Position numbers and translations under genes: made by a program. 64,000 bases of DNA from Solimonas terrae. GTDB taxonomy: Bacteria > Pseudomonadota > Gammaproteobacteria > Nevskiales > Nevskiaceae. Positions 9,394-46,364 of this stretch are shown here, in pieces. Location of the stretch: assembly GCF_011067135.1 (NCBI RefSeq), contig NZ_JAAMOW010000001.1, positions 186,001 through 250,000 on the forward strand, read 5' to 3'. Each line of letters begins with the position of its first letter. Positions within the stretch are counted from its first letter, which is position 1. The notes under the pieces were generated by a model that saw only the letters and a program-made list of their open reading frames with translations, had not been told where the DNA came from and searched no databases.

Positions 9394-11040
9394 TCACGGT
9401 TGCATCGCGCGGACAGTCTCGAGCGGCGGTGCCACGCAACTGAAGGTCTCAGCATCATCACTGGAGCCCCGACCGGTCCAGCGAGCAAATTCCGGATAGG
9501 GACAAAGCGGTCTCGTGCGAATCAAGGTCGCCCTGTCGGGCGCCAGCAAAGGTTTGAGGTCGCCGTCGTATCGACTCGCAATGATGGCACCTGGGGCGAC
9601 ACCTTTTTCCACCCAGTCGAACAACGCCGCACTGATGTTGTGTCGAGCGTCCCCGCTTCCGGGTGCCAGTTGACCGAAGACGTTGGCCCCGGGCCCGCCG
9701 ACGCCGTGCTGCAGGCCAGGCACCATGTAGAGACGCACAAATCCATCGACGGAATCAGTGCCCATCGTGGCCCGCATGCGTTCGTAATAATCGACGGTAA
9801 GCCGGGGCGGAATTGCGGGATCGCTCCAGCCGTGAAATAGGATCAGTTTGCCGCCGCGCGACTTGAAAGCGGTCAAGTCCGGATCATCGGTGCTGTAGAT
9901 CTGACCGAGTGCGTGTTCGGCATCTGCGTGAAATTTCTCGACATCGAAGTGATCCAGCGTCCACTGCGGATCCTTGTAGATCAGGAAGCGCGGAAATTCG
10001 AGCGAATAGCGATACAGCACGCCTTTTCCGGGTCCGGAGCCCAACAGATACTTCGCCCAGCCGCCGAAGCTGCCGAGCTCGCCGCCGGGCTCGTAACCGC
10101 GGCGGCGGTGACCATCAAACACACCGCCGTCACCACTGTAGATCGCACGCAGGCTTTCGATCTGCGGCGCCGTCAGGCAGGCATTGGTTTCCTTCCCGGC
10201 ACAACGCAGCGATTCCGGATGGAAATTGCAATGGCGAGGGTCGTCGATGACGCCATCTTTGACGCCGTCCAGGGCGTCGCAGGCAGCGACCGTAGCGGCC
10301 GCAATCGCGGGCAACTTGCGCTTGGGAATGTAGGCGGCCGGGCTGCGGTTGAGTTGCTTCTGTATCCAGATGGAAGATGCCATCGCCGTGGCACCGTCTG
10401 CGGGCGGGCAACCGACGAGGATGCCGTCGTAATCCTCCGGATAGCGCTGCGCTTCCATCAGGGCCTGCCGCCCCCCGTTCGAAGCCCCCGAGAAATAGGA
10501 ATACGAAGGCGGGCGACCGTAATACGCCGCGATCAGCGTTTTTGCCTTCTGCGCCGTTTCATGAATTGCGCGATAACCGTAGTCGAGCAGTTTCTCCGGA
10601 TGTCCAAGCGCCCAGGATCCGTCGAGATCGCTGGCCACATGGCCTGTATCCGTTGCGGCAACGGCATAGCCATGCTGTAGCGCGAAGCTCAGCCCGATTT
10701 TCTCGATGCTGCCGCCAAACCCGCCGTTGCCAAGGCCCAGAAAGCGACCATTCCAATCGCGCGCCGGCATCCATACCGTGAAGCCGATATGCGAATCGGA
10801 CGTCGGTTGAATCACACCATCGACGCGGCACGAGGCTGGAAGCTTCAACCACGGGACGCCGATGAATGCTGTCTTCCAGGACAAGCTGTAACCCCCACGA
10901 TCAGCATCCACCGACGAGATCAGGGTCTGGTCGAGCGTGAGGTTCTTCAGTGCGTCGCACTTCGAATCGCCGGCACCTAGCGCACAACCGCTGCACAGCA
11001 GTCCAAGCATGACGACAAAGCCGACAAGACAGCCTTTCAT
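9394..11040 (-). CDS. tannase/feruloyl esterase family secreted esterase (copy 1)
   Basis: A 548-residue alpha/beta hydrolase of the tannase/feruloyl esterase family (PF07519). A hydrophobic signal segment precedes CSGC, so it may be secreted or a lipoprotein. Nucleophile Ser187 is in SGASNGGR, Asp407 in FHGWSDPAIPP and His445 in PGLQHGVGG, a complete triad. Unusually, the Cys residues that normally flank Ser and His in this family (CS-D-HC motif) are Ala186 and Gly446, while copy 2 at 23247 keeps both. It hydrolyses carboxylic esters; possible substrates are acylated sugars or phenolic esters. It lies downstream of the MalT-like regulator on the same strand but has its own promoter with a palindrome at 11119-11135. 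Confidence 0.88.
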   Translation of the reverse strand: MKGCLVGFVVMLGLLCSGCALGAGDSKCDALKNLTLDQTLISSVDADRGGYSLSWKTAFIGVPWLKLPASCRVDGVIQPTSDSHIGFTVWMPARDWNGRFLGLGNGGFGGSIEKIGLSFALQHGYAVAATDTGHVASDLDGSWALGHPEKLLDYGYRAIHETAQKAKTLIAAYYGRPPSYSYFSGASNGGRQALMEAQRYPEDYDGILVGCPPADGATAMASSIWIQKQLNRSPAAYIPKRKLPAIAAATVAACDALDGVKDGVIDDPRHCNFHPESLRCAGKETNACLTAPQIESLRAIYSGDGGVFDGHRRRGYEPGGELGSFGGWAKYLLGSGPGKGVLYRYSLEFPRFLIYKDPQWTLDHFDVEKFHADAEHALGQIYSTDDPDLTAFKSRGGKLILFHGWSDPAIPPRLTVDYYERMRATMGTDSVDGFVRLYMVPGLQHGVGGPGANVFGQLAPGSGDARHNISAALFDWVEKGVAPGAIIASRYDGDLKPLLAPDRATLIRTRPLCPYPEFARWTGRGSSDDAETFSCVAPPLETVRAMQP

Positions 11041-11377
11041 GGATCACTCCTGCAAGAGATCGAGACGGCAGCCTTGCCGTCAAGTACGCAGTATCCAAGT
11101 CGGAGGGCTCATTCGAAGCCTCTCCGATCGGGAGGGTTGTCCGGCGCTGGGAGGCACCATGTTCCCGCCTGGACCGACGCCAAATCGTTGCCGGCGCTGG
11201 TCGGCAGAACCCCGTTCACGCGAAAGCGGCAAGCGTTCAGCTGATCGGCTGCCTCAAGCATGGAGTCCAGCTGTTCAGAACTTCAATCTCGTCGCATTGG
11301 GCAAGACGACGCGCGAAATACATCGCGGAACGGGCGCCTCTTCTGGCTCGTGGCCGTACTCCAGCCGGCAACGATGC
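11041..11377. other. promoter region of the tannase gene
   Basis: About 340 bases between the regulator stop (11378) and the tannase ATG (11040). It contains a variant of the palindrome found at two other promoters of this island (11119-11135) and, on the minus strand, a -10-like GATACT at 11095-11090. The remainder shows no gene or clear terminator. Confidence 0.6.
11119..11135. promoter_or_regulatory. candidate operator 1a of the MalT-like regulator (tannase promoter)
   Basis: Read on the minus strand the site is CCTCCCGATCGGAGAGG, two mismatches from the 17-bp palindrome at 14168 and 18906. GATACT lies 24 bp downstream towards the tannase gene, next to the 23-bp spacing seen at the other sites. 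The half nearer the gene is the degenerate one. Probable binding site of the LuxR regulator encoded at 11378-14095 (inference). Confidence 0.6.
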
Positions 11378-14095
11378 TCAGACCAGAATGTGCAGCTTTC
11401 TGGCCTTCGCGAGCGCATCTTCGCGCGAGACGGCGTTGAGCTTTCCGTAGATATTCTTGAGATGCCACTTCACGGTTCCGGCCGAAAGATCGAGCGAGCG
11501 CGCAATGCTCTTTGTCGACAGCGCACGGCTGAGCAGCTCAAGCACTTCGCGCTCACGTCGTGACAGCACCTCGACGCCAGCGACTTCGGTAACTGTTGGC
11601 GCTGCCGGCGTCATTGCCAGAACCGCTGCATCAAGGAATGTCTGTTCTTGCGTACTCAGCTCAAGCGATTGCAACACGCCCAGCAAGGCGGCAGCGGCCG
11701 AGCCGATATCAAGAAGCAGGCGGCGCATGCCGAGTTCCGCTGCAGCGCTGAGGCTGGCCCTGGCTTGCAGCGTCGCCTGCGACGAATCCCCGCCACGCAA
11801 GAGGATGATGGCGCGCATGAATCCAAGACGCGCTGCAAGTTGATGGCGGCCGTTGATCGCCGCAGCCTTGTCGCCCTGATCCAGCAGAGCCAGACAGACT
11901 GCATCGTCGGACTCGTCGAATGCGATGTCGGCGCGAGCGAGCAGGGCAGCCAGCGGAATCTCCGCCCACGCGCAGTTCTGCTTCCCCTCGTATCGCTGCG
12001 CGAGCAAATCGAGGCGCTGCAGGAGTTCGCGAACGGAGAGACTGCGCTGCGCGCGCAGCGCCATGCGTATCTGCTCATACAGACTCCAGGCCACAAGCCT
12101 GTCGGCACCTTCCTGGTAACCGAAGTCCTCAAGTCGCTGCAGCGTTTTTGCGGCTGCTTCCGGATTGCCGTCAAGCTGTTCAAGACGTGCTCTTACCCGA
12201 TAGCTGAACAGCACGCTGTCGGCGGCCCCCACCGCGTCGATCAGCTCGGCGTGCTGGTCCAGCAAGGTGCGCGCGAGATCCAGACGGTCCTGCTGGAACC
12301 GTGCTTCGATCAGATAGCCGACGATGATGCCGCTGGCGTCGGCGCCGAGCGCTGCCGTGCGGACTGCATCGTCGAGCACCGAGGCCAGCAATTCCGCCGC
12401 CTGATCGATATGTCCTTGAATCAGATAGCTCAAGCCCTGGATCATCTCGAGAAATGGTTTGGGGTGGTCGCCGCGGCCAGATCCGTGGCGGCTTCTTACG
12501 GCGTCCCGAGCGGCTTCGAAGCGGTTGGCATAAACGCGGCCGATCCCGGCGAGATATGCCGCCAGTACCGCTTGAAATGCACTGGCGGGGGGCGCGTCGC
12601 TCAGCATCGGTTCGACAATACGCAGCTGCGAACCAGTGTCGTCCTTTCGCATGAAGCGGTAGGCTTTCATCAGTTCCACTTCGGTACGGACGTCCGGGTG
12701 CGAACTGTCGGGGTGCAGGGCGATGTCCCCCAGCGAACGCTCGAACTCATCGGTGCGGCCGACGGACACCTGAGCCCAGGCCGTACACAGGCACGCATCG
12801 AGTCGGGTTCGCAGTCGCTCGCGGGGCACGATCGCGTACCAGGCCAACAGCTGCGTGAATTCAGCGCCCGCGATCATTCGCCTTGCGACCCGATCGATCA
12901 GGTCCATGAGCAAATCCATGTCGGACGCCAGCCGTGCATGCCGCAAGGCTTCGCGATGCAGGCCTTTGCCCGCAAACCAGTGGCTAGCAAGCTGATGCAA
13001 CTTCTGCAGCTCCGGTTCGCCGAGCTTTTCCAGACGCTTGTTGAGAAAGTTGGCGAACAGGCGGTGCAGGCGGTACCAGGGCTCGATGTCGGTGGTGTCG
13101 ATCGGCAGCAGGAACAGGTTCTCGGCTTCGAACTTGCGCAAATGCGTGGCGGCCTGCGGATCACTGGTCAGCAGTTCGCAAAGCTCGCGATTGAAGCGCC
13201 GACACGCCGAGATCCGCGTCAGGAAAGAAAGCTCGGCCGCGCTGAGATGCTCGAGCGCGGCCCGCTGCAGATAGTGTTCGAGCGATTCTTCCTGTGCGAG
13301 TGACAGACGTGCCTGTCCCTCCAGGAAATCGTCTGGCAGCCTTTGCTTGCGCAGGGAAAAGGCGAGCAACTGCAGGCCGGCGGCCCAGCCGTCGGTGATG
13401 TCGTGGAGCGCGCCGATCTGCTTCTGTGCAAGGCGATCCAGACCCTGCACTTTCGCAAACTCGCGAGTCTCGTCGAGACTGAAACGCAAATCCTTGAAGT
13501 CGATCTCGGTCAATTGGTCTTCGCTGCGCAATCGTCCAAGGTCGATCGGCGGACGGATTCTCGACGCCATGGCCAGGTGAAAGCGCGGTGGTGCCAGGGC
13601 CAGCCAATGATCGACAAGTTTCAGAATCGTGAAGGAGGCGATGTATTGGAAGTCATCAATGAAGAAATAGATCTCGCTCGGGTGCTCGCCGAGTTCGTTG
13701 ATAAGAGATGTCAGAAACAGCTTCCACGCCTTGCCGCCCGACCGGGCGAACAGCTTGAGTCCGTCGCTGCTGATTGCCAGCCCAGCTGCACGAAAACTTT
13801 CGGCGATGTAAGCGGCGATGTAGACGTCGTCGTCGTCGGCACTGACGTTGTACCAGGCGACGGTTGCGCCGCGCTGGATGAGCCGCTTCCGCCACTGCGT
13901 CAGCAACATCGTCTTACCGCTGCCGGCTGGCCCGAGCACGAGACTGAGCTTGCGATCGCAACGTGCTTCGAGCTGATCAAGCAAGGCACCACGCGCGACG
14001 GGCGCGCTGCCGATGCGCGGAGGCGCCAGCTTGGTGCGGATAAGCGAAAGTTCGCTCTGGCTGTTCTCGATCATGATTCTGGCGCCGGCCGACAT
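11378..14095 (-). CDS. MalT-like LuxR-family ATP-dependent transcriptional regulator (LAL)
   Basis: A 905-residue LAL/MalT-type activator. The N-terminus has the TKLAPPRIG start typical of this family, then the Walker A motif GPAGSGKT (residues 55-62) and a Walker B-like EIYFFIDDFQYI. A long alpha-helical TPR-like middle follows, then a C-terminal LuxR helix-turn-helix (LSRREREVLELLSRALSTKSIA, recognition helix with GTVKWHLKNIYGKL). MalT-type proteins bind ATP and an inducer, oligomerise and activate promoters from sites near -40. It is divergent from the ligase-trehalase-transporter operon with a palindrome midway. ATG 14074 is an alternative start; neither has a strong ribosome site. A paralogue is at 56460. 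An inducer linked to trehalose or its esters is plausible from context. Confidence 0.93.
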   Translation of the reverse strand: MSAGARIMIENSQSELSLIRTKLAPPRIGSAPVARGALLDQLEARCDRKLSLVLGPAGSGKTMLLTQWRKRLIQRGATVAWYNVSADDDDVYIAAYIAESFRAAGLAISSDGLKLFARSGGKAWKLFLTSLINELGEHPSEIYFFIDDFQYIASFTILKLVDHWLALAPPRFHLAMASRIRPPIDLGRLRSEDQLTEIDFKDLRFSLDETREFAKVQGLDRLAQKQIGALHDITDGWAAGLQLLAFSLRKQRLPDDFLEGQARLSLAQEESLEHYLQRAALEHLSAAELSFLTRISACRRFNRELCELLTSDPQAATHLRKFEAENLFLLPIDTTDIEPWYRLHRLFANFLNKRLEKLGEPELQKLHQLASHWFAGKGLHREALRHARLASDMDLLMDLIDRVARRMIAGAEFTQLLAWYAIVPRERLRTRLDACLCTAWAQVSVGRTDEFERSLGDIALHPDSSHPDVRTEVELMKAYRFMRKDDTGSQLRIVEPMLSDAPPASAFQAVLAAYLAGIGRVYANRFEAARDAVRSRHGSGRGDHPKPFLEMIQGLSYLIQGHIDQAAELLASVLDDAVRTAALGADASGIIVGYLIEARFQQDRLDLARTLLDQHAELIDAVGAADSVLFSYRVRARLEQLDGNPEAAAKTLQRLEDFGYQEGADRLVAWSLYEQIRMALRAQRSLSVRELLQRLDLLAQRYEGKQNCAWAEIPLAALLARADIAFDESDDAVCLALLDQGDKAAAINGRHQLAARLGFMRAIILLRGGDSSQATLQARASLSAAAELGMRRLLLDIGSAAAALLGVLQSLELSTQEQTFLDAAVLAMTPAAPTVTEVAGVEVLSRREREVLELLSRALSTKSIARSLDLSAGTVKWHLKNIYGKLNAVSREDALAKARKLHILV

Positions 14096-14167
14096 TGCGC
14101 GGGGGCTCGGCCACGCGCTCTGCCTCAGGGTAGCGCAGAAATGTAGGGCGCTCGTCGCCCTGCCAGA

Positions 14168-14184
14168 CCTCCCGATCCGGGAGG
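14168..14184. promoter_or_regulatory. candidate operator 1b, bidirectional (regulator / ligase-trehalase operon)
   Basis: Perfect 7-bp arms around ATC: CCTCCCG-ATC-CGGGAGG. On the plus strand TATCCT starts exactly 23 bp after the last base (14207); on the minus strand TACATT also starts exactly 23 bp away (14145). Both are plausible -10 hexamers, which puts the palindrome near -44 of both promoters, the place for an activator of the MalT type. This predicts autoregulation of the regulator and control of the operon starting at 14275. Confidence 0.72.
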
Positions 14185-14274
14185 GTAGCCGAGGCCTGCG
14201 GCCCGCTATCCTGCCGCGACATCGAATCGATGTCCTACAACCGTGTCGCCGACGAGAAGACCGGGGAGAGCGCG

Positions 14275-15843
14275 ATGTCCATCATGAATCTGACGCAGGC
14301 GCTGCATCGCGCGCGGCGCCATTATCCGAGCCGCCTCGCGACGGTATTCGGCTCGCGCCGGCACGATTTCGACACCTTTGCCGATCGCGTCGCACGAATG
14401 GCGGGCGCGTTGTGCCAACTCGGCATGAAACCGGGCGAGCGGGTTGGCATCCTCGCGCTGAACTCCGACCGTTTCCTCGAACTGTACTTTGCGGTGTGGT
14501 GGGGCGGGGGCGCCGTCAATCCGGTGAACATCCGCTGGAGCGCTCGTGAAATTGCATATTCTCTTGACGACTGCGACACGCACATCCTCGTTGTCGACGA
14601 TGCTTTCGCGGCGATCGTCGGTGAACTTTGCGAACGCTCACGATCGCTCCGCACGCTGATTCATGCCGGCGACGGCGCGGCGCCGTCTGGTATGTTCGAC
14701 TACGAACAGCTGATCGCCGACCACACGCCGGTCAGCGACGCGATGCGCGCGAACAGTGACCTCGCCGGCGTTTTCTACACGGGTGGTACGACGGGCTTTC
14801 CCAAAGGCGTGATGCTGTCGCATGCCAATCTGGTATCGAACGCATTGAACGGGCTCGCCGAGCGTGTCGTCGAAGAGGACGACGTTGCTTTGCACGTGGC
14901 GCCGATGTTTCATCTCGCCGATGGATTTTTCGGCATCATGCTGTTCTTGCGCGGCTGTACCCAGGTCATCCTGCCGGCATTTCAGCCGGAGACCGTATTG
15001 CAGACAGTCGAACGCGAACGCGTGAACGCGATCCTGCTGGTGCCGACGATGATCCAGATGCTCGTCGACCATCCGCGTCTGTCCGACTACAAGCTGGATT
15101 CCCTGCGCAAGCTGATCTACGGCGCCTCGCCGATCAGCGAAGCGCTGCTCGACCGCGCCATCGAGCGACTGCCCGGAGCACGGTTCACGCAGGCGTATGG
15201 GCAGACCGAAATGTCGCCCGCAGTGAGCCTGCTCGGCCCCGACTACCACGACGCGCAGGGGCGCAAGCTCGGCAAGTTCCGCTCTGCGGGCCGGCCGATG
15301 CTGGGCGTCGAGATCAGGATCGTCGATCAAGAAGGCCGAGAGTTGCCATTCAGCTCGGTGGGTGAAATCACGGCTCGTGGCGCCGGCGTCATGCAAGGCT
15401 ACTGGAACCGGCCGGAGCAGACTGCCGAAGCCATACGCGACGGCTGGATGTACACGGGCGACAGCGGCTATCTCGACCAGGACGGTTTTCTTTTCATCGT
15501 CGATCGCGTCAAGGACATGATCATCAGTGGTGGCGAAAACATCTATTCAGCTGAAGTCGAAAACGCGATTGCCCAGCATCCCGCGGTTGCGTCTTGCGCC
15601 GTGATTGGCATCCCCGACGATCACTGGGGGGAAGCGGTGCATGCGGTGATCGTGCGAAAGCCGGGCGCCGTCGATTTCGGCATCGATGAACTCCGAGATC
15701 ACTGCCGCGCGCTCATTGCGGGCTACAAGTGTCCGCGCAGCCTCGAGATGCGCGACGCGCTGCCGTTATCCGGCGCTGGCAAGGTGCTGAAGATCACCTT
15801 GCGGGAACCGTACTGGCAGCAGCGACAACGGCGCGTGGGTTAG
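14275..15843 (+). CDS. AMP-forming acyl-CoA ligase
   Basis: A 522-residue ANL-family ligase. The ATP-binding motif YTGGTTGFPKG lies near residue 165, YGQTEMSP is the A5 region, YTGDSGYLDQDGFLFIVDR and the hinge, KDMIISGGENIYSAEVE, close the active site, and the catalytic C-terminal lysine is in SGAGKVLK. It activates a fatty or other organic acid to its CoA thioester in the cytoplasm. I chose ATG 14275 because GGGGAG stands 7 bases before it; the frame is open from ATG 14230. It is first in an operon with trehalase (10 bases downstream) and a sugar transporter, which suggests it activates the acid released from an acylated trehalose (inference). An aromatic acid is the alternative. Confidence 0.9.
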   Translation: MSIMNLTQALHRARRHYPSRLATVFGSRRHDFDTFADRVARMAGALCQLGMKPGERVGILALNSDRFLELYFAVWWGGGAVNPVNIRWSAREIAYSLDDCDTHILVVDDAFAAIVGELCERSRSLRTLIHAGDGAAPSGMFDYEQLIADHTPVSDAMRANSDLAGVFYTGGTTGFPKGVMLSHANLVSNALNGLAERVVEEDDVALHVAPMFHLADGFFGIMLFLRGCTQVILPAFQPETVLQTVERERVNAILLVPTMIQMLVDHPRLSDYKLDSLRKLIYGASPISEALLDRAIERLPGARFTQAYGQTEMSPAVSLLGPDYHDAQGRKLGKFRSAGRPMLGVEIRIVDQEGRELPFSSVGEITARGAGVMQGYWNRPEQTAEAIRDGWMYTGDSGYLDQDGFLFIVDRVKDMIISGGENIYSAEVENAIAQHPAVASCAVIGIPDDHWGEAVHAVIVRKPGAVDFGIDELRDHCRALIAGYKCPRSLEMRDALPLSGAGKVLKITLREPYWQQRQRRVG

Positions 15844-15852
15844 TTTCCGGCG

Positions 15853-17430
15853 ATGCGCCTGAGTGGATTCATAACGTGCATCGTGTTGGCGCTATGCGGC
15901 AGCACTGCCGCTGCAGCACCAGCCACGCCACCATCACCGCTGGATGTCTACCAGGAACTGTTCGTACGCGTTGAGTCGCAATCACTGTTTTCAGACGACA
16001 AGACCTTTGCCGACGCCGAGCCGCGCCAGAATCCCGCTGCGATCCTCGCGGCGTATCGAGCCCACGTGCCGCGTGATCGCGCCGAGCTAGCGGCATTTGT
16101 CGCGGCGCATTTCGACCTTCCGCACGATGGAGCGGTGCAGCCGGCCGAGCCGTCTGCGTCATGTGCGTTGAAGGAGCACATCGCCAGGCTATGGACGGCG
16201 CTGCAGCGTCCTCCGACCGTGCCAGCGCCGGGTTCCTCGGCGCTGGCATTCGCATTTCCGCACGTGATTCCCGGCGGACGCTTCCGCGAGCTGTACTACT
16301 GGGATTCGTACTTCACGGCGCTGGGCCTGGTGCGCGACGGGCACACCGACATCGTGCAGGACATGGTGGCCGGCTTCGCGGCGCTGATTGCCCGATATGG
16401 GCACATCCCGAACGGCACGCGCACGTATTACCTGAGCCGTTCGCAACCGCCCGTGTTCTTCCTGATGGTGGGACTGCTCGATCCGACGGATCCGGCGCAG
16501 GCCTACGCTGCCTGGCTGCCTGCATTGCGCGCCGAACATGCCTACTGGATGTCGGGCGAACGCTCGCTCGCGGTCGGCACGGCCGCGGCGCACGTCGTCC
16601 GGCTGGCCGATGGCGCGCTGCTGAACCGGTACTGGGATGCACGCGACACACCACGCGACGAGGCCTATCGCAAGGATGTGGCCGTCGCGCAGCGGACGCA
16701 GCGACCTGCCGCCGAAGTTTATCGAGATATCCGCGCCGCGGCCGAAAGCGGTTGGGATTTCAGCTCGCGCTGGTTCGCCGACGGCCGGCACTTGCAGACG
16801 ATCGAGACCACGGCAATTGTGCCAGTTGACCTCAACAGTCTGTTGTATGGGCTGGAACAGGCCATTGCGCTGGGCTGCGCGCGTGTCCACGACAGCGGCT
16901 GCGAAACCGAATTCACGCAGCGCATGGCGGCGCGGCGCGCCGCCATAGAGCGTTACCTCTGGAACGTGAAGGCCCATTGCTATTTCGACTACCAATGGCG
17001 CCGCGGCGAACCGACGCGAAGACTGAGCGCGGCAACGCTGTATCCGTTGTTCGTCGGCGCTGCAGTGCCGCAGCATGCGGCGGCCGTCGCGGAGGTTGTC
17101 GAACGTCGCCTGGTCAAGTCCGGCGGCCTGGTGACGACTGCCCGTCACACCGGCCAGCAGTGGGACGCACCGAACGGCTGGGCGCCGCTGCAATGGATCG
17201 CGGTCGACGCCCTGTCGCGCTACGGCCTGCGCGACGACGCCCGGTCGCTGGCCTGTCGCTGGCTGCTTACCGTGGAACGCACCTACGACGTCGAGCACCG
17301 CCTGGTCGAGAAATACGATGTCGAAACTCGCCGGCCAGGCGGTGGCGGCGAGTATCCGCTGCAGGACGGCTTCGGCTGGACCAACGGCGTGACGCGCGCG
17401 CTGCTTGACCAGTACCCGGATTGCAAATGA
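15853..17430 (+). CDS. treA: periplasmic alpha,alpha-trehalase (GH37)
   Basis: A 525-residue protein carrying both trehalase signatures: PGGRFRELYYWDSYF and QWDAPNGWAPLQW. The catalytic acid is in ESGWDFSSRW and the catalytic base region is GGGEYPLQDGFGWTNG, matching the TreA active site. An N-terminal signal peptide (LSGFITCIVLALCGSTAAAA) indicates export, so this is the periplasmic type rather than cytoplasmic TreF. It hydrolyses trehalose to two glucose. Its place between an acyl-CoA ligase and a sugar transporter is unusual and suggests trehalose is only one part of the substrate. It is probably controlled by operator 14168. Confidence 0.95.
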   Translation: MRLSGFITCIVLALCGSTAAAAPATPPSPLDVYQELFVRVESQSLFSDDKTFADAEPRQNPAAILAAYRAHVPRDRAELAAFVAAHFDLPHDGAVQPAEPSASCALKEHIARLWTALQRPPTVPAPGSSALAFAFPHVIPGGRFRELYYWDSYFTALGLVRDGHTDIVQDMVAGFAALIARYGHIPNGTRTYYLSRSQPPVFFLMVGLLDPTDPAQAYAAWLPALRAEHAYWMSGERSLAVGTAAAHVVRLADGALLNRYWDARDTPRDEAYRKDVAVAQRTQRPAAEVYRDIRAAAESGWDFSSRWFADGRHLQTIETTAIVPVDLNSLLYGLEQAIALGCARVHDSGCETEFTQRMAARRAAIERYLWNVKAHCYFDYQWRRGEPTRRLSAATLYPLFVGAAVPQHAAAVAEVVERRLVKSGGLVTTARHTGQQWDAPNGWAPLQWIAVDALSRYGLRDDARSLACRWLLTVERTYDVEHRLVEKYDVETRRPGGGGEYPLQDGFGWTNGVTRALLDQYPDCK

Positions 17431-17467
17431 AGCGCCGACCCGGCGCGCCAGCAGGGAGCTTCGTCCG

Positions 17468-18895
17468 ATGAATCCCGCTTCAAGGTCTTCGCATTCGCTT
17501 GCGACCCGTCTCACGCTGATCGCCAATCTCGGCGGCCTGATGTTCGGCTACGACACTGCCGTGATCTCCGGAGCGGTCGATTCCATCGACCGCTACTTCA
17601 TCGCCCCGCTGGCATTGTCCGAAACCGCCCGCGATACCCTTTCCGGCTTCACGATCTCGAGCGCGCTGATCGGTTGCGTGATCGGCGCTGCGATGGCGGG
17701 TTGGGCCGCCGACCGCTCGGGGCGGCGCAAGACCCTGATGCTGGCCGCCGTGCTGTTCATCGTCTCGTCGATCGGCGCCGCGCTGCCGGAGATCGGATTC
17801 GGCGCGATCGGCGCTGCCGGGCCGGCCGCGCTGCCGGCCTTCATCCTCTACCGGATACTCGGCGGTGTCGGCATCGGCATCGCCTCGATGGTGTCGCCGA
17901 TGTACATCGCCGAAATTGCGCCCGGCGCGATCCGTGGCCGTCTGGTGTCGTACAACCAGATGGCGATCGTCGTCGGCATCGTCGGCGTCTATTTCGTCAA
18001 CTGGGCGATCGCCGGTGCCGGCGATGATGCCTGGGTGCATGCCGTCGGCTGGCGCCTGATGCTGGCGTCCGCGGCGTTGCCGGCTGCGCTCCTGTTGCTG
18101 CTGTTGCTGCGCGCCGACGACAGCCCGCGCTGGCTGGTGCTCAAGGCGCGCGACGACGAGGCGCGCTCGCTGCTCGTCCGCCTGGCCGGCGAGGTCGAAG
18201 CCGACCGTGCGCTCGCCGAGATCCGCCAGAGCCTCGTGCAACACACGCAGCCGCTGCTGCATTTCGGTGCGGGCGTCGTGATCATCGGCGTACTGCTGTC
18301 GGTGTTCCAGCAGGCGGTCGGCATCAATGCCGTGCTGTATTACGCACCGTTGATCTTCCGCAACATGGGCGCCGGCGGGCAGACCGCGCTGCTGCAGACG
18401 GTGCTGGTCGGCGTCGTCAATCTGCTGGCCACGGTGCTGGCGATCTTCACGGTCGATCGCTGGGGCCGCAAACCACTGCTGGTGCTGGGCGGCTTCGTGA
18501 TGGCAGCGGCGATGGCGGCGCTGTCGATCTGCTTCGCATCGCAGGCGCTCGGCATTGGCGCGCTGCTCGCCATGCTGGTCTACGTCGCCGGCTTCGCCCT
18601 GTCCTGGGGTCCGGTCACCTGGGTGCTGCTCGCCGAGATCTTCCCGAATTCGATCAAGGGCAGGGCACTGTCGCTGGCCGTGGCCGCACAGTGGCTCGCC
18701 AATATCGCCGTGTCGTGGTCATTCCGCCTGTTCGACGGCAATTCGCGGCTGATCGCGCATTTCCACCACGGCTTCCCATATGCGCTGTACGCGGCCATCA
18801 GCCTGTTCGCGGCCATCTTCGTGCTGCGCTGCGTGCCGGAAACCAAGGGTCGCTCGCTGGAATCCGTCGCTTCGCTGTGGAAGCGCCGCGACTGA
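17468..18895 (+). CDS. MFS sugar porter (sugar:H+ symporter family)
   Basis: A 475-residue, twelve-segment transporter of the major facilitator sugar porter family. Motifs in order: GGLMFGYDTAVISGA in helix 1, DRSGRRK between helices 2 and 3, PMYIAEIAPGAIRGRLVS, QQAVGINAVLYYAP in helix 7, DRWGRKPLL and the closing PETKGRSLE. Members carry glucose, xylose, galactose or arabinose. ATG 17468 has AGGGAG upstream; the frame is open from 17405. It follows trehalase by 37 bases and is the natural importer of the glucose released in the periplasm (inference). Confidence 0.93.
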   Translation: MNPASRSSHSLATRLTLIANLGGLMFGYDTAVISGAVDSIDRYFIAPLALSETARDTLSGFTISSALIGCVIGAAMAGWAADRSGRRKTLMLAAVLFIVSSIGAALPEIGFGAIGAAGPAALPAFILYRILGGVGIGIASMVSPMYIAEIAPGAIRGRLVSYNQMAIVVGIVGVYFVNWAIAGAGDDAWVHAVGWRLMLASAALPAALLLLLLLRADDSPRWLVLKARDDEARSLLVRLAGEVEADRALAEIRQSLVQHTQPLLHFGAGVVIIGVLLSVFQQAVGINAVLYYAPLIFRNMGAGGQTALLQTVLVGVVNLLATVLAIFTVDRWGRKPLLVLGGFVMAAAMAALSICFASQALGIGALLAMLVYVAGFALSWGPVTWVLLAEIFPNSIKGRALSLAVAAQWLANIAVSWSFRLFDGNSRLIAHFHHGFPYALYAAISLFAAIFVLRCVPETKGRSLESVASLWKRRD

Positions 18896-18905
18896 ATGGC
18901 CTGAG

Positions 18906-18922
18906 CCTCCCGATCCGGGAGG
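18906..18922. promoter_or_regulatory. candidate operator 1c (TonB receptor / esterase operon)
   Basis: CCTCCCG-ATC-CGGGAGG, identical over 17 bp to the site at 14168. It is followed by GGTTGCCGA where the other has GGTAGCCGA. TAGCCT starts exactly 23 bp downstream (18945), a weak -10. It lies 10 bases after the transporter stop and about 100 bases before the receptor ATG, so the operon at 19023 has its own promoter. Confidence 0.72.
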
Positions 18923-19022
18923 GTTGCCGATGCCTCGGCTGTCCTAGCCTGCACATCGAGCTTCGCCAGCGATGGCGCGGACAGAACTAGAGACGACGCG
19001 ATGACGTCGACGGGAGGAGTGA

Positions 19023-21416
19023 ATGCGTAGCCATCGATGGAGTACCGGACGCAGCTTTGCGACCACGGCAAGTGTTGCCGCAGCGGTGCTGACGACCCTG
19101 GGCGTGAGCGTTTGCATGGCGGATGCCTGGGCACAGGCGGACGCCGATGCCTCGGCAGCGCCAGTTTCGGCCGACACCGCACCTGCAGCGCTCGCCGACA
19201 ACGGCGCGAATGCCGCCGCCGCGGACGCCACGACTCCGGCTTCGCAGACGGAAGCCGCATCGTCGGGCGCGAGCGGGCAGATCGCCGAAGTCATCGTCAC
19301 CGCGACCAAGCGCCGCAAGAATCTGCGCGACATTCCGGCGAGCATCGCGTCGATTCCCGGCGACGAACTCGAACAGCGCAATGCGCAGACCGCGCAGGAC
19401 ATCGTCAAGCTGGTGCCGGGCGTGAACTACACGGAAGCGCCGGACAGCCCGCCGCGCATCACGGTGCGCGGCATCTCGGCGCAGCCGGCGACCAGCTTCA
19501 CGACCGGCGTGATGTTTGGCGACGTCTCGTTCACGGACGAGTATGTTCCGCTCGTGGCGCTGGATCCGAATCCGTTCGATCTGCAGAGCGTCGACGTCCT
19601 GAAAGGGCCGCAGGGCACGCTGTTCGGTGCCTCCGGTTTCAACGGCGCGATCCGTTACGTTCCAAAGGCGCCGGAGTTCGGCGTCTGGCGGATCAAGTAT
19701 TTCGGCGAATACACCGATCTCAGCGACGGCGGCCTGAAGCCGACCTACGGCGGCGCCGTGAACGCACCGATCGGCGAAGACCTGGCCTTGCGCGTCACCG
19801 GCTTCCACCGCGATTCGCCGGGCTATGTCGACAACCTGCGCACCGGCAAGAACGATGCGAACGAAGTCACGCAGGACGGCGTGCGCGGCATTCTCGGCTG
19901 GCAACCGTCCGATCCGTTCATGGCGCGCCTGACCTACGCCTGGCAGGGCACCCAAATCGATGATGCCTCGACGACCGACAACGGCGACGGCAATCTGAGC
20001 AGCAACGTGCGCCCGCGCAGCAGTCCGCAGCAGAACCGTTACCAGCTGGCCGACCTGAATCTTGCCTACGACTTCGGCGGGGCGCGCCTGGTCTCGGAAA
20101 GCTCCTATGTCTACAAGAAGCTCGACAACTACTTCGATGCCTCGCGCACCTTGCTGGGCGGTGCGCTGCCGCTGCTCGCGCAGGTCTATGCGGCGCACTC
20201 CGACACGTACGCTCAGGAGTTGCGGCTGGTATCGCCCGACGACAAGAACGCCGCCTGGCAATGGGTGACGGGCGCATTCTGGTCGCGGCAGAAGGTCTAC
20301 GACCGCCTCGACATCACGCTCGGCGATCCGTCGGTACCGGTCGACGTGCTGCTGCCGGTACTCGACGCGCTGCTGCCGGGTCTCGGCGGCCTGGCCGGAC
20401 CGGACGGCCAGTTGGATGCCGTCAGTACGGTGTCCGACGTCACGGTCGAGGAGAAGGCGATCTTCGGCGAAGTCACGCGGCGGCTGTGGACCGATCTCGA
20501 GCTGACGCTTGGCGGTCGCTACTACTGGACGAATTCCGGCGGCAGCAACACGCTTGGCGGCGCCATCACCCTGGCGACGACCGGTTCGCCGACCTCGGTG
20601 ACGCAGGCGGAAATCCACGAACAGGGATTCAATCCCAAGGCTTCGCTGCTCTGGCATCTGACGCCGGACGTACTGGCCTACACGACTGCGGCCAAGGGCT
20701 TCCGTGTCGGCGGTGTGCAAGCCGGTGCGACACTGCCACCATCCCCGCCACCGCCGGCAACCTTCAAATCCGACACAATCTGGAATTACGAAGCGGGTCT
20801 GCGCACGCAGTGGTTCGATCGCAAGCTGCATGCCGACATCGCCGGCTTCTACGAACGCTGGCATCACCCGCAATACCTGCAGCCGGACTCGACCGGACTG
20901 CTCAGCTTCATCAGCAATGTCGGCGGCGTGAAGAGCGTCGGCGGCGAAGCGACGCTGCAGGCCCTGCTGCCGGTTCCCGGCCTGATGCTGACGGTTTCCG
21001 CGGCCTACGCGGATACCGTGACCACGGAGCCGTTCACCGCATCCGACGGCTCCGAGGTGCCGGTCGGCGCGCGCTGGCCGTTCTCGCCGCATTGGCAGAC
21101 CGCGACGACGCTGGCCTACGCCGTCGATCTCTCGCCGTGGAATCTCAACGGTGCCGTCACGCATACCTACATGGGCAAGGCCACCAACAACCTCGCTCAG
21201 GAAGCGCCGGTGTTCGACTACCAGCAATGGGACGTTCAGCTCAGCATCGACAACGAGCGCCTGCTCTGGTTGCCCGAGATCACGCTGTCAGCCAACAACC
21301 TCCTCGACGAGCGCGGTGTCGTCAACCACGTCTACGCCGGCGGTGCCACGCCGTACAGCGACTACACCTATATCCAGCCGCGCGCGATCACCGTGCGTCT
21401 GAGCGGGCATTTCTGA
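19023..21416 (+). CDS. TonB-dependent outer-membrane receptor
   Basis: A 797-residue receptor with signal peptide, an Ala/Asp-rich spacer, a TonB-box-like AEVIVTATKRRKN near residue 90, the plug domain (IPASIASIPGDELEQ, VDVLKGPQGTLFGASGFNGA) and a beta-barrel that ends in the aromatic residue Phe (VRLSGHF). GGAGG stands 5 bases before the ATG. It imports a bulky substrate across the outer membrane using TonB energy. It is cotranscribed with a CocE hydrolase and a tannase-family esterase, and is preceded by operator 1c, so the ligand is probably an ester-containing compound, perhaps an acylated trehalose (inference). Confidence 0.93.
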   Translation: MRSHRWSTGRSFATTASVAAAVLTTLGVSVCMADAWAQADADASAAPVSADTAPAALADNGANAAAADATTPASQTEAASSGASGQIAEVIVTATKRRKNLRDIPASIASIPGDELEQRNAQTAQDIVKLVPGVNYTEAPDSPPRITVRGISAQPATSFTTGVMFGDVSFTDEYVPLVALDPNPFDLQSVDVLKGPQGTLFGASGFNGAIRYVPKAPEFGVWRIKYFGEYTDLSDGGLKPTYGGAVNAPIGEDLALRVTGFHRDSPGYVDNLRTGKNDANEVTQDGVRGILGWQPSDPFMARLTYAWQGTQIDDASTTDNGDGNLSSNVRPRSSPQQNRYQLADLNLAYDFGGARLVSESSYVYKKLDNYFDASRTLLGGALPLLAQVYAAHSDTYAQELRLVSPDDKNAAWQWVTGAFWSRQKVYDRLDITLGDPSVPVDVLLPVLDALLPGLGGLAGPDGQLDAVSTVSDVTVEEKAIFGEVTRRLWTDLELTLGGRYYWTNSGGSNTLGGAITLATTGSPTSVTQAEIHEQGFNPKASLLWHLTPDVLAYTTAAKGFRVGGVQAGATLPPSPPPPATFKSDTIWNYEAGLRTQWFDRKLHADIAGFYERWHHPQYLQPDSTGLLSFISNVGGVKSVGGEATLQALLPVPGLMLTVSAAYADTVTTEPFTASDGSEVPVGARWPFSPHWQTATTLAYAVDLSPWNLNGAVTHTYMGKATNNLAQEAPVFDYQQWDVQLSIDNERLLWLPEITLSANNLLDERGVVNHVYAGGATPYSDYTYIQPRAITVRLSGHF

Positions 21417-21456
21417 GGCGGCACCGATGAGGGCATCGCCACTGCGGGGAGAATCG

Positions 21457-23250
21457 ATGAAAGACGTGCACGCGGGTTTCGTTTCACGATGGCTGCAGCT
21501 GGCCGCGATCGCAATGCTGCTGCTGTGCGCCGGCGGGGCGCAGGCCGGCTTCGATCTCAAGGATCGGCCGCTGGCCGGCATCGAGCGCGAGTTCGGCTAC
21601 TTCAAGGCCGCGGACGGCACGCCGCTGGCGTACGTCGTCTATCGCCCCGAAGGTGCAGGGCCGCTGCCGACGATCGCGTGGTACGACGTCTACGGCGCCG
21701 GCTCGATGCCGCCCCTGGGCATGGTGCGTGCGTGGGTTGCGCGCGGCTATGCCTTCGTCGCCGCCAGTGTGCGCGGCACCGGGTGCTCGGACGGCGACTA
21801 CGTTCCATTCGGTGCACAGGACGCGCGCGACGGGGCAGTCTTCGTCGACTGGGCCGGCTCGCAGGCCTGGAGCAACGGCAAGATCGGCCTCGTCGGTAAC
21901 TCGCAACCCGGCATCGTGCAGTTCGGCATTGCCGCGCTGCATCCCACGCACCTGGTCGCGATCGCGCCTGGCGGCACGATCAGTCGGATCTATGCCGACG
22001 GTTGGTATCTCGGCGGCATCTACAACGCCAGCTTCGCGGCGCACTGGAGCCGCTACGACCAGCCGGGTGCATCGCTGAAATTCGCGCAACTGCGTGCAGG
22101 TCTTGGCGACAAGGACTGCGAGGCACGCGTCGCGCGCATCGGGCCGAACTCGCTGGTCGCCCGTGTGCGTGCGCAGCCGTACGATGGCGAGTACTACCAA
22201 CGCTATTCGCCCTACGATCGGGCGCCTGACGTGACGGTGCCGACGCTGATGGTGCAAAGCTGGACCGATCCAGCCGTCGGCAGCAGCGCGCTGAACGTAT
22301 TTGCGCGACTGACCGCGAAGAGCAAACGTCTCTTCGTCCTCAGCGGTGGTCACGATTCGTATCTCGATTCGACAGCGCAGGAAGAAGTGGGGCGCTGGAT
22401 GGATCACTGGCTCAAGGGCGATGACAACGGGGTCGACGGCGAGCCGCGTGTGCGCATCGACTTCGGCACGACGCCGACAGCGGCTGCGAACTATGGCGAT
22501 GTCGTGCCGGTGCACGCGACCGCCACGCAGGCCCTGGCGGACTGGCCGGCGCCCGAGACGAAATGGCAGAGCTGGTTCATGACGGCAGGCGGCGCTTTGC
22601 AGGACAAGCCGGCGAACGGTGAGGCCGCCGGTACGCGCGAATATTTTTATCCCGCGGGCACCGAGTTGCCGGGCGATGCGGTGCAGTTCGCTATGACCGC
22701 ACTCGACTGGGGTTCTCTGCGCTATCGCACACCGCCCGTCGCGCACGACACGGCCATTTTCGGGGCGCCAGAAGTCGTGCTGTACGCGGCGAGCGAGCAG
22801 GTCAACACGGATTTCATGGTGAACCTGCATGACGTGTCGCCGTCCGGCGACGTGACCTTCATCCAGCGCGGCTATCTGCGAGCCTCGCGGCGCGCCGTCG
22901 ATTCGTCGCGGTCGACCGCGCAATATGTGTTTCATCCGCACCTCAAGGACGAGCCGCTGCAGGCCGGCCATGTCTACCGCTTCGACTTTTCGTTGCTGCC
23001 GGTGGTTTACATCCTGCGCGCCGGCCATTCGCTTGAGCTGCTGCTTGCGGCGCCGTCTCCCATCCCGTCACCGGGCTGGGGGCTGACGCCGTTGATGCTG
23101 CCGGGGTTCAATACGGTCTATCACGATTCCACGCATCCATCGTTGCTGAAAATTCCGGTCGTTCCGGGGATCAAGGCGCAGGGCCCGGAACCTCAGTGCG
23201 GCAGTCTGCCGTTCCAGCCCTGCCGGCATGAAAACGGGAGCACGTCTTGA
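21457..23250 (+). CDS. CocE/NonD-type alpha/beta hydrolase, secreted
   Basis: A 597-residue protein of the CocE/X-Pro dipeptidyl-peptidase family. A signal peptide (LQLAAIAMLLLCAGGAQA) is followed by the hydrolase domain: oxyanion-region YDVYGAG, nucleophile Ser in GLVGNSQPGIVQF, Asp in QSWTDPAVG and His in SGGHDSYLD. A C-terminal jelly-roll X-Pro dipeptidyl-peptidase domain follows (VLYAASEQVNTDF...). Family members cleave esters such as cocaine, acyl groups or beta-lactam side chains. GGGGAG sits 7 bases before ATG 21457; the frame is open from 21427. Its stop overlaps the start of the next esterase, so both are made together. Confidence 0.88.
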   Translation: MKDVHAGFVSRWLQLAAIAMLLLCAGGAQAGFDLKDRPLAGIEREFGYFKAADGTPLAYVVYRPEGAGPLPTIAWYDVYGAGSMPPLGMVRAWVARGYAFVAASVRGTGCSDGDYVPFGAQDARDGAVFVDWAGSQAWSNGKIGLVGNSQPGIVQFGIAALHPTHLVAIAPGGTISRIYADGWYLGGIYNASFAAHWSRYDQPGASLKFAQLRAGLGDKDCEARVARIGPNSLVARVRAQPYDGEYYQRYSPYDRAPDVTVPTLMVQSWTDPAVGSSALNVFARLTAKSKRLFVLSGGHDSYLDSTAQEEVGRWMDHWLKGDDNGVDGEPRVRIDFGTTPTAAANYGDVVPVHATATQALADWPAPETKWQSWFMTAGGALQDKPANGEAAGTREYFYPAGTELPGDAVQFAMTALDWGSLRYRTPPVAHDTAIFGAPEVVLYAASEQVNTDFMVNLHDVSPSGDVTFIQRGYLRASRRAVDSSRSTAQYVFHPHLKDEPLQAGHVYRFDFSLLPVVYILRAGHSLELLLAAPSPIPSPGWGLTPLMLPGFNTVYHDSTHPSLLKIPVVPGIKAQGPEPQCGSLPFQPCRHENGSTS

Positions 23251-24875
23251 TCCGGAAGGTTCTGCCGGTTCTGGTTCTGCTCGCGATCGGCGCCTGCGCC
23301 GACCGGCAGATCGCCGGGCCTTGCAAGCAGCTGCGCGATCTGCAGTTCGAGCACGCGCACGTGGTGTCGGCAACGGCGGACTCCGGCGGCAGAGAGTTTT
23401 CGTTGATCGGCTTGTTCATCGGTCTGCCGTTCTTTCATGAGCCACCGTCGTGTCGCGTCGAACTGGAAATCACGCCGGTGCCTGATTCGACGATCCGCGC
23501 CGACGTCTGGCTGCCGGCCAAAGCCTGGAACGGCAAGTTGCAGGGCATCGGCAATGGCGGCTTTGCCGGATCGATCGACAAGCTCAGCCTGCGCTACGCA
23601 CTGCAGCAGGGCTATGCGGCGGCGGCGACCGACACCGGCCACGAAGCCAATGATCGTGATGGTCGCTGGGCGCTCGGTCATCCCGAGAAAATCCGCGACT
23701 ATGGCGATCGCGCCATTCACGAAACCGCACTCCACGCGAAGGAACTCATCACCGCCTACTACGGCCGCCAGCCCGAGCACGCTTATTTCGGCAGCTGCTC
23801 GAACGGCGGCCGCGAGGGACTGATGGAGGCGCAGCGCTATCCGGATGACTATGACGGCATCCTTGCTGGTGCACCGGCAATGTTGCCGACGGTCCAGCTT
23901 CCGGCCTGGGCCTGGACTCAGCAACAGCTGCAGAAACCCGGGGCCTATATTCCGAGCGGCAAGTGGCCGGCGATTGCCGCCGCCACCCTTGCGGCCTGCG
24001 ACACGCTCGACGGCGTGAAGGACGGCGTCATCGACGATCCGCGGCGCTGCCACTTCGATCCGGCAGCGCTTCAATGCAAGGGGCCGGAAACCGACTCGTG
24101 CCTGACAACGCCGCAGCAACGGGCCTTGCGTGCAATCTATTCCGGCCCCGACGAACGGCATCATGGCTTCATGCCGGGTGGTGAACTCGGCAAGAAGGGT
24201 GGCGCGGCGGAATGGTTCAGCGGCGACAAGCCGCACAAGAGCATCGAGTATGGCTACGCACAGGATTTCTATCGTTACCTTGTGTACGACGATCCTCGCT
24301 GGAGCCTCGACAGTTTCGATATAAAGCGCGATGAAGCGGCGATGTACGATCGCCTGCATGCGGCACTCGATGCGGATGATCCCGATCTGACGCGTTTCGC
24401 CGCACATGGCGGCAAGCTGATCCTGTTTCACGGCTGGAACGATCCGGCACTGCAGCCTCAGATCACGATCGATTATTACGAAAACCTGCGTGCCCGCATG
24501 GGCGGCGCAAAGACTGACGACTTCGTAAGGCTATACATGGTGCCTGGTCTGCAGCACTGCATCGGCGGCCCTGGCCCCAACGTCTTCGGTGGTTTGCCGC
24601 CTGGCGGCCACGCCGATCCTCGCCACAACATCAGTGCGGCCCTGGAGGCCTGGGTCGAACAGGCGCGCGAGCCGGGGCCGATCATTGCGACAAAATACGA
24701 CAGCGACTTGAAGCCGCTGCTCGCCCCTGAAAAGGCAAAGGCGATCCGTTCACGCCCTCTGTGTCCTTACCCTCAAGCAGCGCGCTGGAACGGAAACAGC
24801 TCCCCCGATGACGCGAGCAGTTTCAGCTGCGCGCTCGAAGTTGGCGACTCCGACGGAGCGATTGGTGGCAATTAG
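23247..24875 (+). CDS. tannase/feruloyl esterase family lipoprotein (copy 2)
   Basis: A 542-residue paralogue of the esterase at 9394. It keeps the full CS-D-HC motif: Cys184-Ser185 in GSCSNGGR, Asp399 in FHGWNDPAL and His437-Cys438 in PGLQHCIGG, the two Cys being expected to form the disulfide that ties Ser and His together. The signal sequence ends in a good lipobox (IGAC), so it is probably anchored in a membrane facing the periplasm or cell surface. The TTG start overlaps the CocE stop as TTGA. It hydrolyses ester bonds of the ligand taken up or bound by the adjacent receptor (inference). Confidence 0.88.
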   Translation: MIRKVLPVLVLLAIGACADRQIAGPCKQLRDLQFEHAHVVSATADSGGREFSLIGLFIGLPFFHEPPSCRVELEITPVPDSTIRADVWLPAKAWNGKLQGIGNGGFAGSIDKLSLRYALQQGYAAAATDTGHEANDRDGRWALGHPEKIRDYGDRAIHETALHAKELITAYYGRQPEHAYFGSCSNGGREGLMEAQRYPDDYDGILAGAPAMLPTVQLPAWAWTQQQLQKPGAYIPSGKWPAIAAATLAACDTLDGVKDGVIDDPRRCHFDPAALQCKGPETDSCLTTPQQRALRAIYSGPDERHHGFMPGGELGKKGGAAEWFSGDKPHKSIEYGYAQDFYRYLVYDDPRWSLDSFDIKRDEAAMYDRLHAALDADDPDLTRFAAHGGKLILFHGWNDPALQPQITIDYYENLRARMGGAKTDDFVRLYMVPGLQHCIGGPGPNVFGGLPPGGHADPRHNISAALEAWVEQAREPGPIIATKYDSDLKPLLAPEKAKAIRSRPLCPYPQAARWNGNSSPDDASSFSCALEVGDSDGAIGGN

Positions 24876-25893: not shown

Positions 25894-25950
25894 GTGATTG
25901 ACTCGATTCTGGTGAAGTGATCGAAAGTGTGTTGAGACGTTCCAGCGGCG

Positions 25951-27105: not shown

Positions 27106-27181
27106 GCTTCTCTCCACGTGGCAACAACGACTGGGAACTTCCCGAACGCTTCCGGACGACTGACGTCTCCAGCGAAGACCG

Positions 27182-28684: not shown

Positions 28685-28692
28685 CGCCGGGG

Positions 28693-30306: not shown

Positions 30307-30386
30307 GCGCCACTCCTGGACCTGACTGTCGCCGATCAGTCTAGAAAACGCGTCCCTGGCTCATAAGAGAGCAAAATCAGCGAGCT

Positions 30387-30403
30387 GATACCTGATTTGT
30401 ATC
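30387..30403. promoter_or_regulatory. LysR-type binding box ATAC-N7-GTAT
   Basis: GATAC-CTGATTT-GTATC, a perfect dyad containing ATAC-N7-GTAT, the classic recognition site of BenM/CatM/CbnR-type LysR regulators. It lies between the LysR gene and the first monooxygenase, at the distance expected of a recognition-binding site upstream of the monooxygenase promoter. Confidence 0.7.
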
Positions 30404-30555
30404 GTCAGCCGTGACGGTTCAATCGAGGTGTCATGCCGTCGAATTGGTAATTTGTCTCCGCGAACTCGTTGCAGACTGTGATCCCGGCCGGACCAGGACG
30501 TACAGCTGTCAGGAATGCCGCCGCATCCCCCATTTCTGATGCGATACGAAGCCTG

Positions 30556-42423: not shown

Positions 42424-42476
42424 CGGCGACGCATTGCTTTCGACCTGATGACACCCGACGGAATCCTGGAGGCAGC

Positions 42477-46349: not shown

Positions 46350-46364
46350 GACCTGAGTCCCTTC

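Follow-up and report, generated by a model that had tools for sequence, protein, structure and literature searches.

The locus and its genes

The DNA considered here is a 64,000-nucleotide stretch of the Solimonas terrae genome (contig NZ_JAAMOW010000001.1, positions 186,001 to 250,000), referred to below as the window. Between positions 9394 and 24875 it holds eight genes that appear to form a single regulon for the use of a sugar ester, plausibly an acylated trehalose. All eight are intact frames with strong family matches in scans with Pfam and NCBIfam profiles. They are arranged, with three operator-like repeats, as follows:

9394-11040, minus strand: Tan1, tannase/feruloyl-esterase family hydrolase (Pfam PF07519, 1.6e-122)
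11119-11135: operator-like inverted repeat CCTCTCCGATCGGGAGG before Tan1 (two mismatches to the exact 15-mer)
11378-14095, minus strand: MalT-like regulator of the LAL type, 905 residues, ATPase plus LuxR helix-turn-helix (HTH), divergent from the ligase (Pfam GerE, 1.6e-16)
14168-14184: putative operator CCTCCCGATCCGGGAGG before the ligase operon (exact 15-mer core)
14275-15843, plus strand, frame open from 14230: acyl-CoA ligase (PF00501, 5e-85; NF004837, 530.7 bits, cut-off 476)
15853-17430, plus strand: exported glycoside hydrolase family 37 (GH37) alpha,alpha-trehalase (PF01204, 5.1e-147)
17471-18895, plus strand, frame open from 17405: major facilitator superfamily (MFS) sugar porter, XylE/GLUT type (Sugar_tr, 7.3e-119; NF007484, 651.9 bits, cut-off 608)
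18906-18922: putative operator CCTCCCGATCCGGGAGG before the TonB receptor operon (exact 15-mer core)
19023-21416, plus strand: TonB-dependent outer-membrane receptor (plug PF07715, 2.2e-16; barrel PF00593, 2.3e-32)
21427-23250, plus strand: CocE/NonD family serine hydrolase with signal peptide (TIGR00976, 220.8 bits, cut-off 66.3)
23247-24875, plus strand: Tan2, tannase/feruloyl-esterase family hydrolase (PF07519, 5.9e-116)

An original prediction for this DNA had named the receptor, two tannases, CocE hydrolase, trehalase, porter and ligase; all are present, intact and of the families stated. The receptor, CocE and Tan2 genes are 11 bases apart or overlap. Start 14275 is likely for the ligase: it follows a ribosome site, GGGGAGA, and agrees with the start of a paralogue 71% identical to it (locus C17, in the same genome).

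The trehalase passes two NCBIfam models (NF009773, 597.2 bits, cut-off 512; NF009774, 573.7, cut-off 560) and does not pass a third (NF009775, 644.8, cut-off 941). Its closest solved structure is E. coli periplasmic trehalase (1.4e-154), and it retains the stretches SGWDFSSRW and GGGGEYPLQDGFGW; in Tre37A of E. coli, both catalytic acids lie in the corresponding stretches. By family score and catalytic stretches, then, it is predicted to be a GH37 trehalase (TreA/TreF), with an active site as intact as had been claimed. The porter, which passes the XylE equivalog cut-off, ranks XylE first among solved structures (3.3e-161), followed by GlcP, STP10 and GLUT; glucose, instead of xylose, is its presumed cargo.

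Signal types were read from the N-termini by eye. The trehalase and the CocE hydrolase begin with ordinary signal peptides, Tan1 and Tan2 with lipoprotein-type signals (LLCSGC and AIGAC, respectively). Both tannase-family proteins keep the nucleophile serine of SxGGR (SNGGR in Tan1), and the solved structures closest to them are feruloyl esterases and MHETase, those of Tan1 being fungal feruloyl esterases and MHETase. A disulfide motif, CS-D-HC, with one cysteine beside the nucleophile serine and one beside the catalytic histidine, is typical of the family. Tan2 has CS and HC; Tan1 has AS and HG, and so lacks both cysteines. The serine-side cysteine is missing, too, from the tannase of locus C13 (L091 9405-11219), while in Tan1 the loss is paired. 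The CocE protein, for which MKDVHAG is an alternative start, also exceeds the CocE_NonD Pfam cut-off, and its PDB matches belong to the CocE/cocaine esterase family.

The regulator has a GerE match over cut-off at residues 843-895, and at residues 37-154 resembles nSTAND_NTPase5 (7.4e-07) and AAA_16 (1.9e-06), both under their gathering scores. It thus appears to fit the description of LAL regulators: an N-terminal STAND/AAA ATPase, a C-terminal LuxR HTH and a length of ~900 aa. The MalT equivalog, NF003420, aligns over nearly its full length but scores 283.6 bits against a cut-off of 537, indicating a LAL-type relative rather than MalT itself. A polysaccharide utilization locus (PUL) of the SusCD type was considered and rejected: the receptor scores 41.3 bits against 368 for TIGR04056, and no SusD family match was found among the scanned window frames. 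The receptor's matches in PDB are weak and confined to its N-terminal part.

A putative shared operator

The core sequence CTCCCGATCCGGGAG occurs at exactly two places in the 4.42 Mb genome, one before the ligase and the other before the receptor, both within the locus. About 0.02-0.03 exact copies would be expected in 4.4 Mb, by arithmetic that assumes a GC content like that of the window. Because the window served as the source of the motif, it is the second exact copy that forms the independent part of this evidence. With up to two mismatches allowed, the genome holds 10 matches, compared to 5 for a backwards-read control; one of them, 11120-11134, stands before Tan1. Given those numbers, this third site counts by its position, not by its score alone.

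Inverted repeats were also sought before the ligases of seven LAL-linked loci, described below, and each was scored against 200 shuffles. The score was reached by 4 of 200 for locus G036b, 9 of 200 for G057, and 14 of 200 for G021, where the repeat is a different one and lies far upstream. Those of the window (48/200), C17 (75/200), C13 (113/200) and G036a (177/200) are not unusual compared to shuffles, and so the operator claim rests on genome-wide placement rather than on single promoters. That placement supports the idea, already part of the original prediction, that one regulon probably spans the gene set. C17 has a candidate operator of its own, CCTACCGN3-6GTAGG, present at four places in the genome (five matches, one place being read on both strands). 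Three of the four stand before C17 transcription units: that for acyl-CoA dehydrogenase (ACAD), multifunctional enzyme type 2 (MFE-2) and thiolase, that for the TonB receptor, and that for ligase and trehalase. The total is not raised (5 matches against 7 in the backwards-read control); the placement alone is notable.

Conservation in another genus

Genome counts throughout include that of S. terrae. In G036, a member of another genus in the same family, a LAL gene adjoins a row of genes for ligase, tannase, trehalase, porter, CocE and TonB receptor, side by side and 50-69% identical to those of the window. There is one tannase gene, compared to two in the window; the receptor gene is whole (query residues 86-797); and a convergent glucokinase gene adjoins the set on the other strand. 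The plug part is repeated, in short form, behind the G036 receptor gene (L071 16655-17119, plus strand); this copy is 62% identical over 156 residues and in frame, without a full barrel. Among 85 genomes of the order, 2 have a close relative of CocE, in both cases within this gene set. Since G036 keeps the same families together, and both close CocE copies sit inside the set, the combination is not due to chance. The juxtaposition of trehalase with tannase and TonB genes, a synteny that the original prediction had proposed searching for, is met again in G036 and in C17.

Similar trehalases are limited to few relatives: they occur at 1e-80 in 14 of 117 genomes, at 1e-140 in 11 of the 58 genomes of the family, and at 1e-160 in 3 of 369 in a wider sample. 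The trehalases of the window, G036, C17, G057 and G031 group together in a tree at 99/99. (One row of this tree, G003c5, was mis-framed and forms a long branch; the tree kept the row, which we do not use, and the correct frame has the motifs.) In G031, trehalase and porter genes stand together with a convergent glucokinase gene, and BLAST found none of the set's esterases. When contigs of the named genomes were scanned with Tan2, no trehalase match was found at any of 43 loci (three trehalase queries, E 1e-12), several of which are short. Relatives of the trehalase are also present in 79 plasmid records. In the four inspected (two from Novosphingobium, and others from Sphingobium and Eleftheria) no tannase, CocE or acyl-CoA ligase is annotated within 9 kb, in a gene table that is incomplete; some of the four trehalases do have TonB receptors, or alpha/beta hydrolases or esterases of other kinds, annotated nearby.

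Sister regulons with exchanged sugar genes

Close relatives of the ligase (1e-190) are found at 11 loci, spread over 8 of the order's 85 genomes; a wider sample of 398 has one such genome. A LAL gene is the divergent neighbor at six of these loci, and lies ~10 kb away at a seventh, C17. Among the remaining four, G015 and G029 gave no LAL match, G010 gave only partial LAL-like matches 7-9 kb off, and the G026 contig stops ~200 bases short of the ligase start, too early for linkage to be judged. The ligases of these four are 54-59% identical to that of the window, and neither trehalase nor mannitol dehydrogenase was matched in the stretches read.

Elsewhere in the S. terrae genome and in relatives, regulator, ligase, receptor and a tannase-family gene recur in company with another sugar module, either trehalase (plus GH1) or mannitol 2-dehydrogenase type. 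The seven LAL-linked loci carry different sugar genes. In three (window, C17 and G036a) this is a trehalase, and in three others (C13, G036b and G021) an enzyme of the mannitol 2-dehydrogenase type, whose best PDB match is mannitol dehydrogenase (1.6e-121). At the seventh, G057, the contig stops ~270 bases past the ligase, too early for a verdict; a different contig of the same genome does carry a trehalase together with GH1 and MFS genes, and in trees the trehalase and LAL gene of G057 are sisters of those of C17. In G057:C189 (L068 5392-14782) the trehalase gene is followed by genes for GH1, MFS, a pyrroloquinoline quinone (PQQ)-type dehydrogenase and a family III CoA-transferase, which places a trehalase near an acid-activation gene.

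Besides the window, C17, C13, G036a and G021 each have a tannase-family gene. C17 encodes a TonB receptor, GH1, MFS, ACAD, MFE-2 and thiolase, and a row consisting of ligase, trehalase, enoyl-CoA hydratase (ECH), ACAD, tannase and Abhydrolase_3. G021 has almost all of the modules in 54 kb (L125, L114 and L115; G021:C15:6001-60000), with two LAL regulators: divergent GH37, MFS, ACAD, LAL, tannase, MFE-2, SCP2-type thiolase, mannitol-dehydrogenase type, TonB, CoA-transferase, ligase, LAL, GH1 and MFS. In a tree the seven LAL-linked ligases form a group (89/96, under the star of the tool used). That of G036a falls in a smaller group of five (99/97), with G057 and the three loci of the mannitol type, apart from the window and C17. 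Ligase kinship therefore does not track the sugar, which fits the swapping of modules and leaves the ligase uninformative about the sugar.

Other relatives lie nearby. About 24 kb upstream of the window a divergent GH37 gene, 34% identical to the window trehalase, stands by TonB, Abhydrolase_3 and DUF885 genes (L083 9182-16031, minus strand; G000:C11:150001-170000), and the first 809 bases of the window hold another DUF885-like stretch. Farther along the window, 50012-59255 contains a second LAL gene (56460-59255, minus strand) near genes for an acyl-CoA ligase, ECH, two ACAD-like proteins and MFS_2: another LAL-linked acid regulon. The best model for its ligase is BaiB, under cut-off, and one gene of this region (51263-52531, minus strand) is known from BLAST only.

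Because a divergent GH37 protein (34%) occurs together with TonB and Abhydrolase_3 genes (C11:150-170k), GH37 members in this genome may differ in target. It could be, then, that the substrate is an acylated alpha-glucoside other than trehalose, or some other acylated natural product, the sugar of which is cut by the GH37 enzyme only incidentally. The addition of a GH1 gene in a sister regulon would agree with this, but the window enzyme exceeds the cut-offs of two curated trehalase models and keeps the active-site stretches, and we consider the idea very improbable.

Nature of the acid

Four of the sister regulons (C17, C13, G036b and G021) hold genes of beta-oxidation: ACAD, SCP2-type thiolase, and either MFE-2 or a MaoC hydratase with a short-chain dehydrogenase/reductase (SDR). 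In C17, the solved structures nearest to MFE-2 are a (3R)-hydroxyacyl-CoA dehydrogenase and peroxisomal multifunctional enzyme type 2, and the one nearest to the thiolase is SCP2-thiolase type 1 (2.6e-160). G021 has MFE-2, thiolase and ACAD. In C13 and G036b, genes for MaoC hydratase, SDR, ACAD and thiolase lie beside the LAL gene; the SDR of C13 was identified through BLAST alone, as two fragments on either side of a stretch border. The cut-off of NF006102 is exceeded by the thiolases of C17, G036b, G021 and the window (45054-46349); that of C13 is an intact frame, 68% identical to the window thiolase (BLAST only). The window thiolase belongs to the beta-oxidation set nearest to the locus (45054-47861, plus strand), where SCP2-type thiolase, MaoC-like and SDR genes follow one another, with a TonB receptor gene upstream (42159-44867) and without the regulon operator.

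SCP2-thiolase takes 2-methyl-branched 3-oxoacyl-CoA, and MFE-2 and MaoC enzymes work on (3R)-hydroxyacyl-CoA. These genes point to an acid that would be aliphatic, and perhaps methyl-branched or 3-hydroxylated; an aliphatic acid is likely, in preference to an aromatic one. Similar genes also serve in the degradation of steroid side chains, however, and thiolase and SDR genes adjoin the LAL-less ligases of G010 and G015, too, and for both reasons the beta-oxidation evidence is suggestive, not decisive.

The alternative is a phenolic (aroyl) trehalose, or another aroyl-sugar ester, from which tannases of the feruloyl type would release an acid for a hydroxycinnamoyl-CoA ligase, with downstream aromatic genes to finish the ring. 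The nearest solved relatives of the tannases are indeed feruloyl esterases and MHETase; the solved structures nearest to the ligase include one named feruloyl-CoA synthetase; and next to the locus, at 24940-31539 on the minus strand, there is an aromatic-type cluster of fumarylacetoacetate (FAA) hydrolase, glyoxalase-type and two FAD monooxygenase genes (24940-30306) plus a LysR gene. But this cluster is convergent with the trehalose regulon and has its own regulator, its genes had no BLAST match in any of the 11 ligase stretches compared, and the beta-oxidation genes of the sister regulons are of an aliphatic type. We regard aroyl esters as improbable. The original prediction had left the target as acyl- or aroyl-trehalose. 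The trehalose ester has since gained from G036, the operator and the paralogous regulons; the choice of acid can be narrowed to acyl, with aroyl disfavored, because four sister regulons carry beta-oxidation genes and because the aromatic genes lie on the other strand, are linked to LysR and are unmatched in the 11 stretches. Trehalose esters of an aliphatic acid, perhaps one with a 2-methyl branch, agree better with the evidence than aromatic esters do.

A proposed acyl-trehalose utilization regulon

More likely than not, the locus is a regulon for the utilization of acyl-trehaloses, a reading to which we assign a probability of roughly 0.57. The receptor would bring acylated trehalose across the outer membrane, and the lipoprotein esterases Tan1 and Tan2, together with the periplasmic CocE hydrolase, would take off the acyl groups. 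Periplasmic trehalase would then split the trehalose into two glucoses, which the porter would import and glucokinase phosphorylate. The freed acid, once activated by the acyl-CoA ligase, would go to beta-oxidation enzymes encoded at other places in the genome, and the LAL regulator may sense a compound of the pathway and act at the CCTCCCGATCCGGGAGG sites. The reading gains support from a set conserved in another genus, from the shared operator, and from paralogous regulons in which the same ester and acid machinery is joined to a different sugar module. The G031 trehalase-porter pair, with its convergent glucokinase gene, we count in its favor as well. The trehalose half is thereby strengthened but not proven.

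Several observations weigh against this reading. Judged by CocE, the exact set is rare: 2 of the order's 85 genomes have it, as does 1 of 398 in a phylum sample, which is S. terrae itself. Close trehalases occur without the esterases in G031 and in G003:C5, and so the trehalase need not act after ester cleavage. The tannase-family gene of G036b is just 30-33% identical and on the opposite strand. No beta-oxidation gene carries the operator of the window regulon, and sequence alone leaves room for aromatic acids, because feruloyl esterases and MHETase belong to the tannase family and a feruloyl-CoA synthetase is among the nearest solved ligases.

The G031 arrangement, trehalase and porter without the set's esterases, would also be expected if free trehalose and separate esters (waxes, acylglycerols or acylated polyols) from fungal biomass or another mixed source were used in parallel, with no molecule to join them. 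This is the main rival. Mannitol and trehalose are both storage sugars of fungi, and the presence of three different esterases hints at breadth. General porins can, however, let free trehalose through, while here the TonB receptor and the trehalase operon share an operator; ligase adjoins trehalase in C17; the whole set is kept in G036; and a trehalase or mannitol dehydrogenase is present in six of the seven LAL-linked ligase loci, the seventh ending at a contig edge. Parallel use seems unlikely to us.

The acyl-trehalose reading can be extended, tentatively, to the sister loci. These could be modular, LAL-controlled regulons for fungal esters of storage sugars, that is, polyketide- or fatty-acyl trehaloses and mannitols, in which a shared ester and acid half is combined with exchangeable sugar halves. 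The shared half might comprise the TonB receptor, tannase-type esterases, ligase, SCP2-type thiolase and a peroxisome-like MFE-2 or MaoC/SDR, the beta-oxidation enzymes being suited to chains that are 2-methyl-branched or carry a (3R)-hydroxy group. The sugar halves might be trehalase with glucose porter, trehalase with GH1, and mannitol 2-dehydrogenase. Possible as we consider this to be, we would not bet on it.

Relation to known systems

The locus is classed as a modular variant of TonB-linked carbohydrate-utilization (CUT) loci, and appears to fit their description, with receptor, glycosidase and porter in one regulon under a shared operator. Like CUT loci and PULs, it combines a receptor, exported hydrolases, a periplasmic glycosidase, an inner-membrane porter and a dedicated regulator; unlike them, it adds an acyl-CoA ligase, several ester hydrolases and a regulator of the LAL type, and the sister regulons add a beta-oxidation set. 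With periplasmic trehalose use by TreA of E. coli it shares an exported GH37 trehalase that releases glucose, but here esterases, acyl-CoA ligase and TonB receptor are under the same operator. Breakdown of rhamnolipids, sophorolipids and other glycolipids is similar in joining ester and glycosidic cleavage and in passing the acid to beta-oxidation; what differs here are the trehalose and mannitol modules, TonB uptake and LAL regulation.

Searches of open-license literature turned up no bacterial locus for the breakdown of trehalose esters, which is weak evidence of absence. The original prediction, which knew of no locus of such make-up, thus stands as far as that search goes, but the locus is less isolated than was thought, being one of several modular regulons.

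Trehalose esters are well known as cell-envelope lipids and biosurfactants of actinobacteria, and trehalose lipids from these organisms are an equally open natural source. Among fungi, TreA-E make treconorin, a trehalose-polyketide ester, and acyl-trehaloses are thus a real class of fungal product; later in this pathway an alpha-glucosidase splits the trehalose ester (PMC10682982). That is biosynthesis by fungi, whereas bacterial breakdown is what we propose. Mannitol counterparts exist in yeast, as polyol esters whose acyl groups are (R)-3-hydroxy fatty acids (PMC6720868), and polyketides of the TMC-151 type contain mannitol or arabitol (PMC7712584). Both would fit the sister regulons that have mannitol 2-dehydrogenase, and the available parts of the two papers contain no bacterial degradation pathway.

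If the acyl-trehalose reading is true, the locus would provide a defined enzyme set for acyl-trehaloses, and a rule as well: with the acid half constant, the sugar half swappable and one operator per regulator, the substrates of sister loci would be predictable from their sequences. If the modular reading is true, too, these regulons would match, on the catabolic side, the sugar-esterified polyketides that have recently been described from fungi. To specialists, the part of most interest is likely to be the swapping of modules itself, trehalose versus mannitol, around a single ester and acid core.

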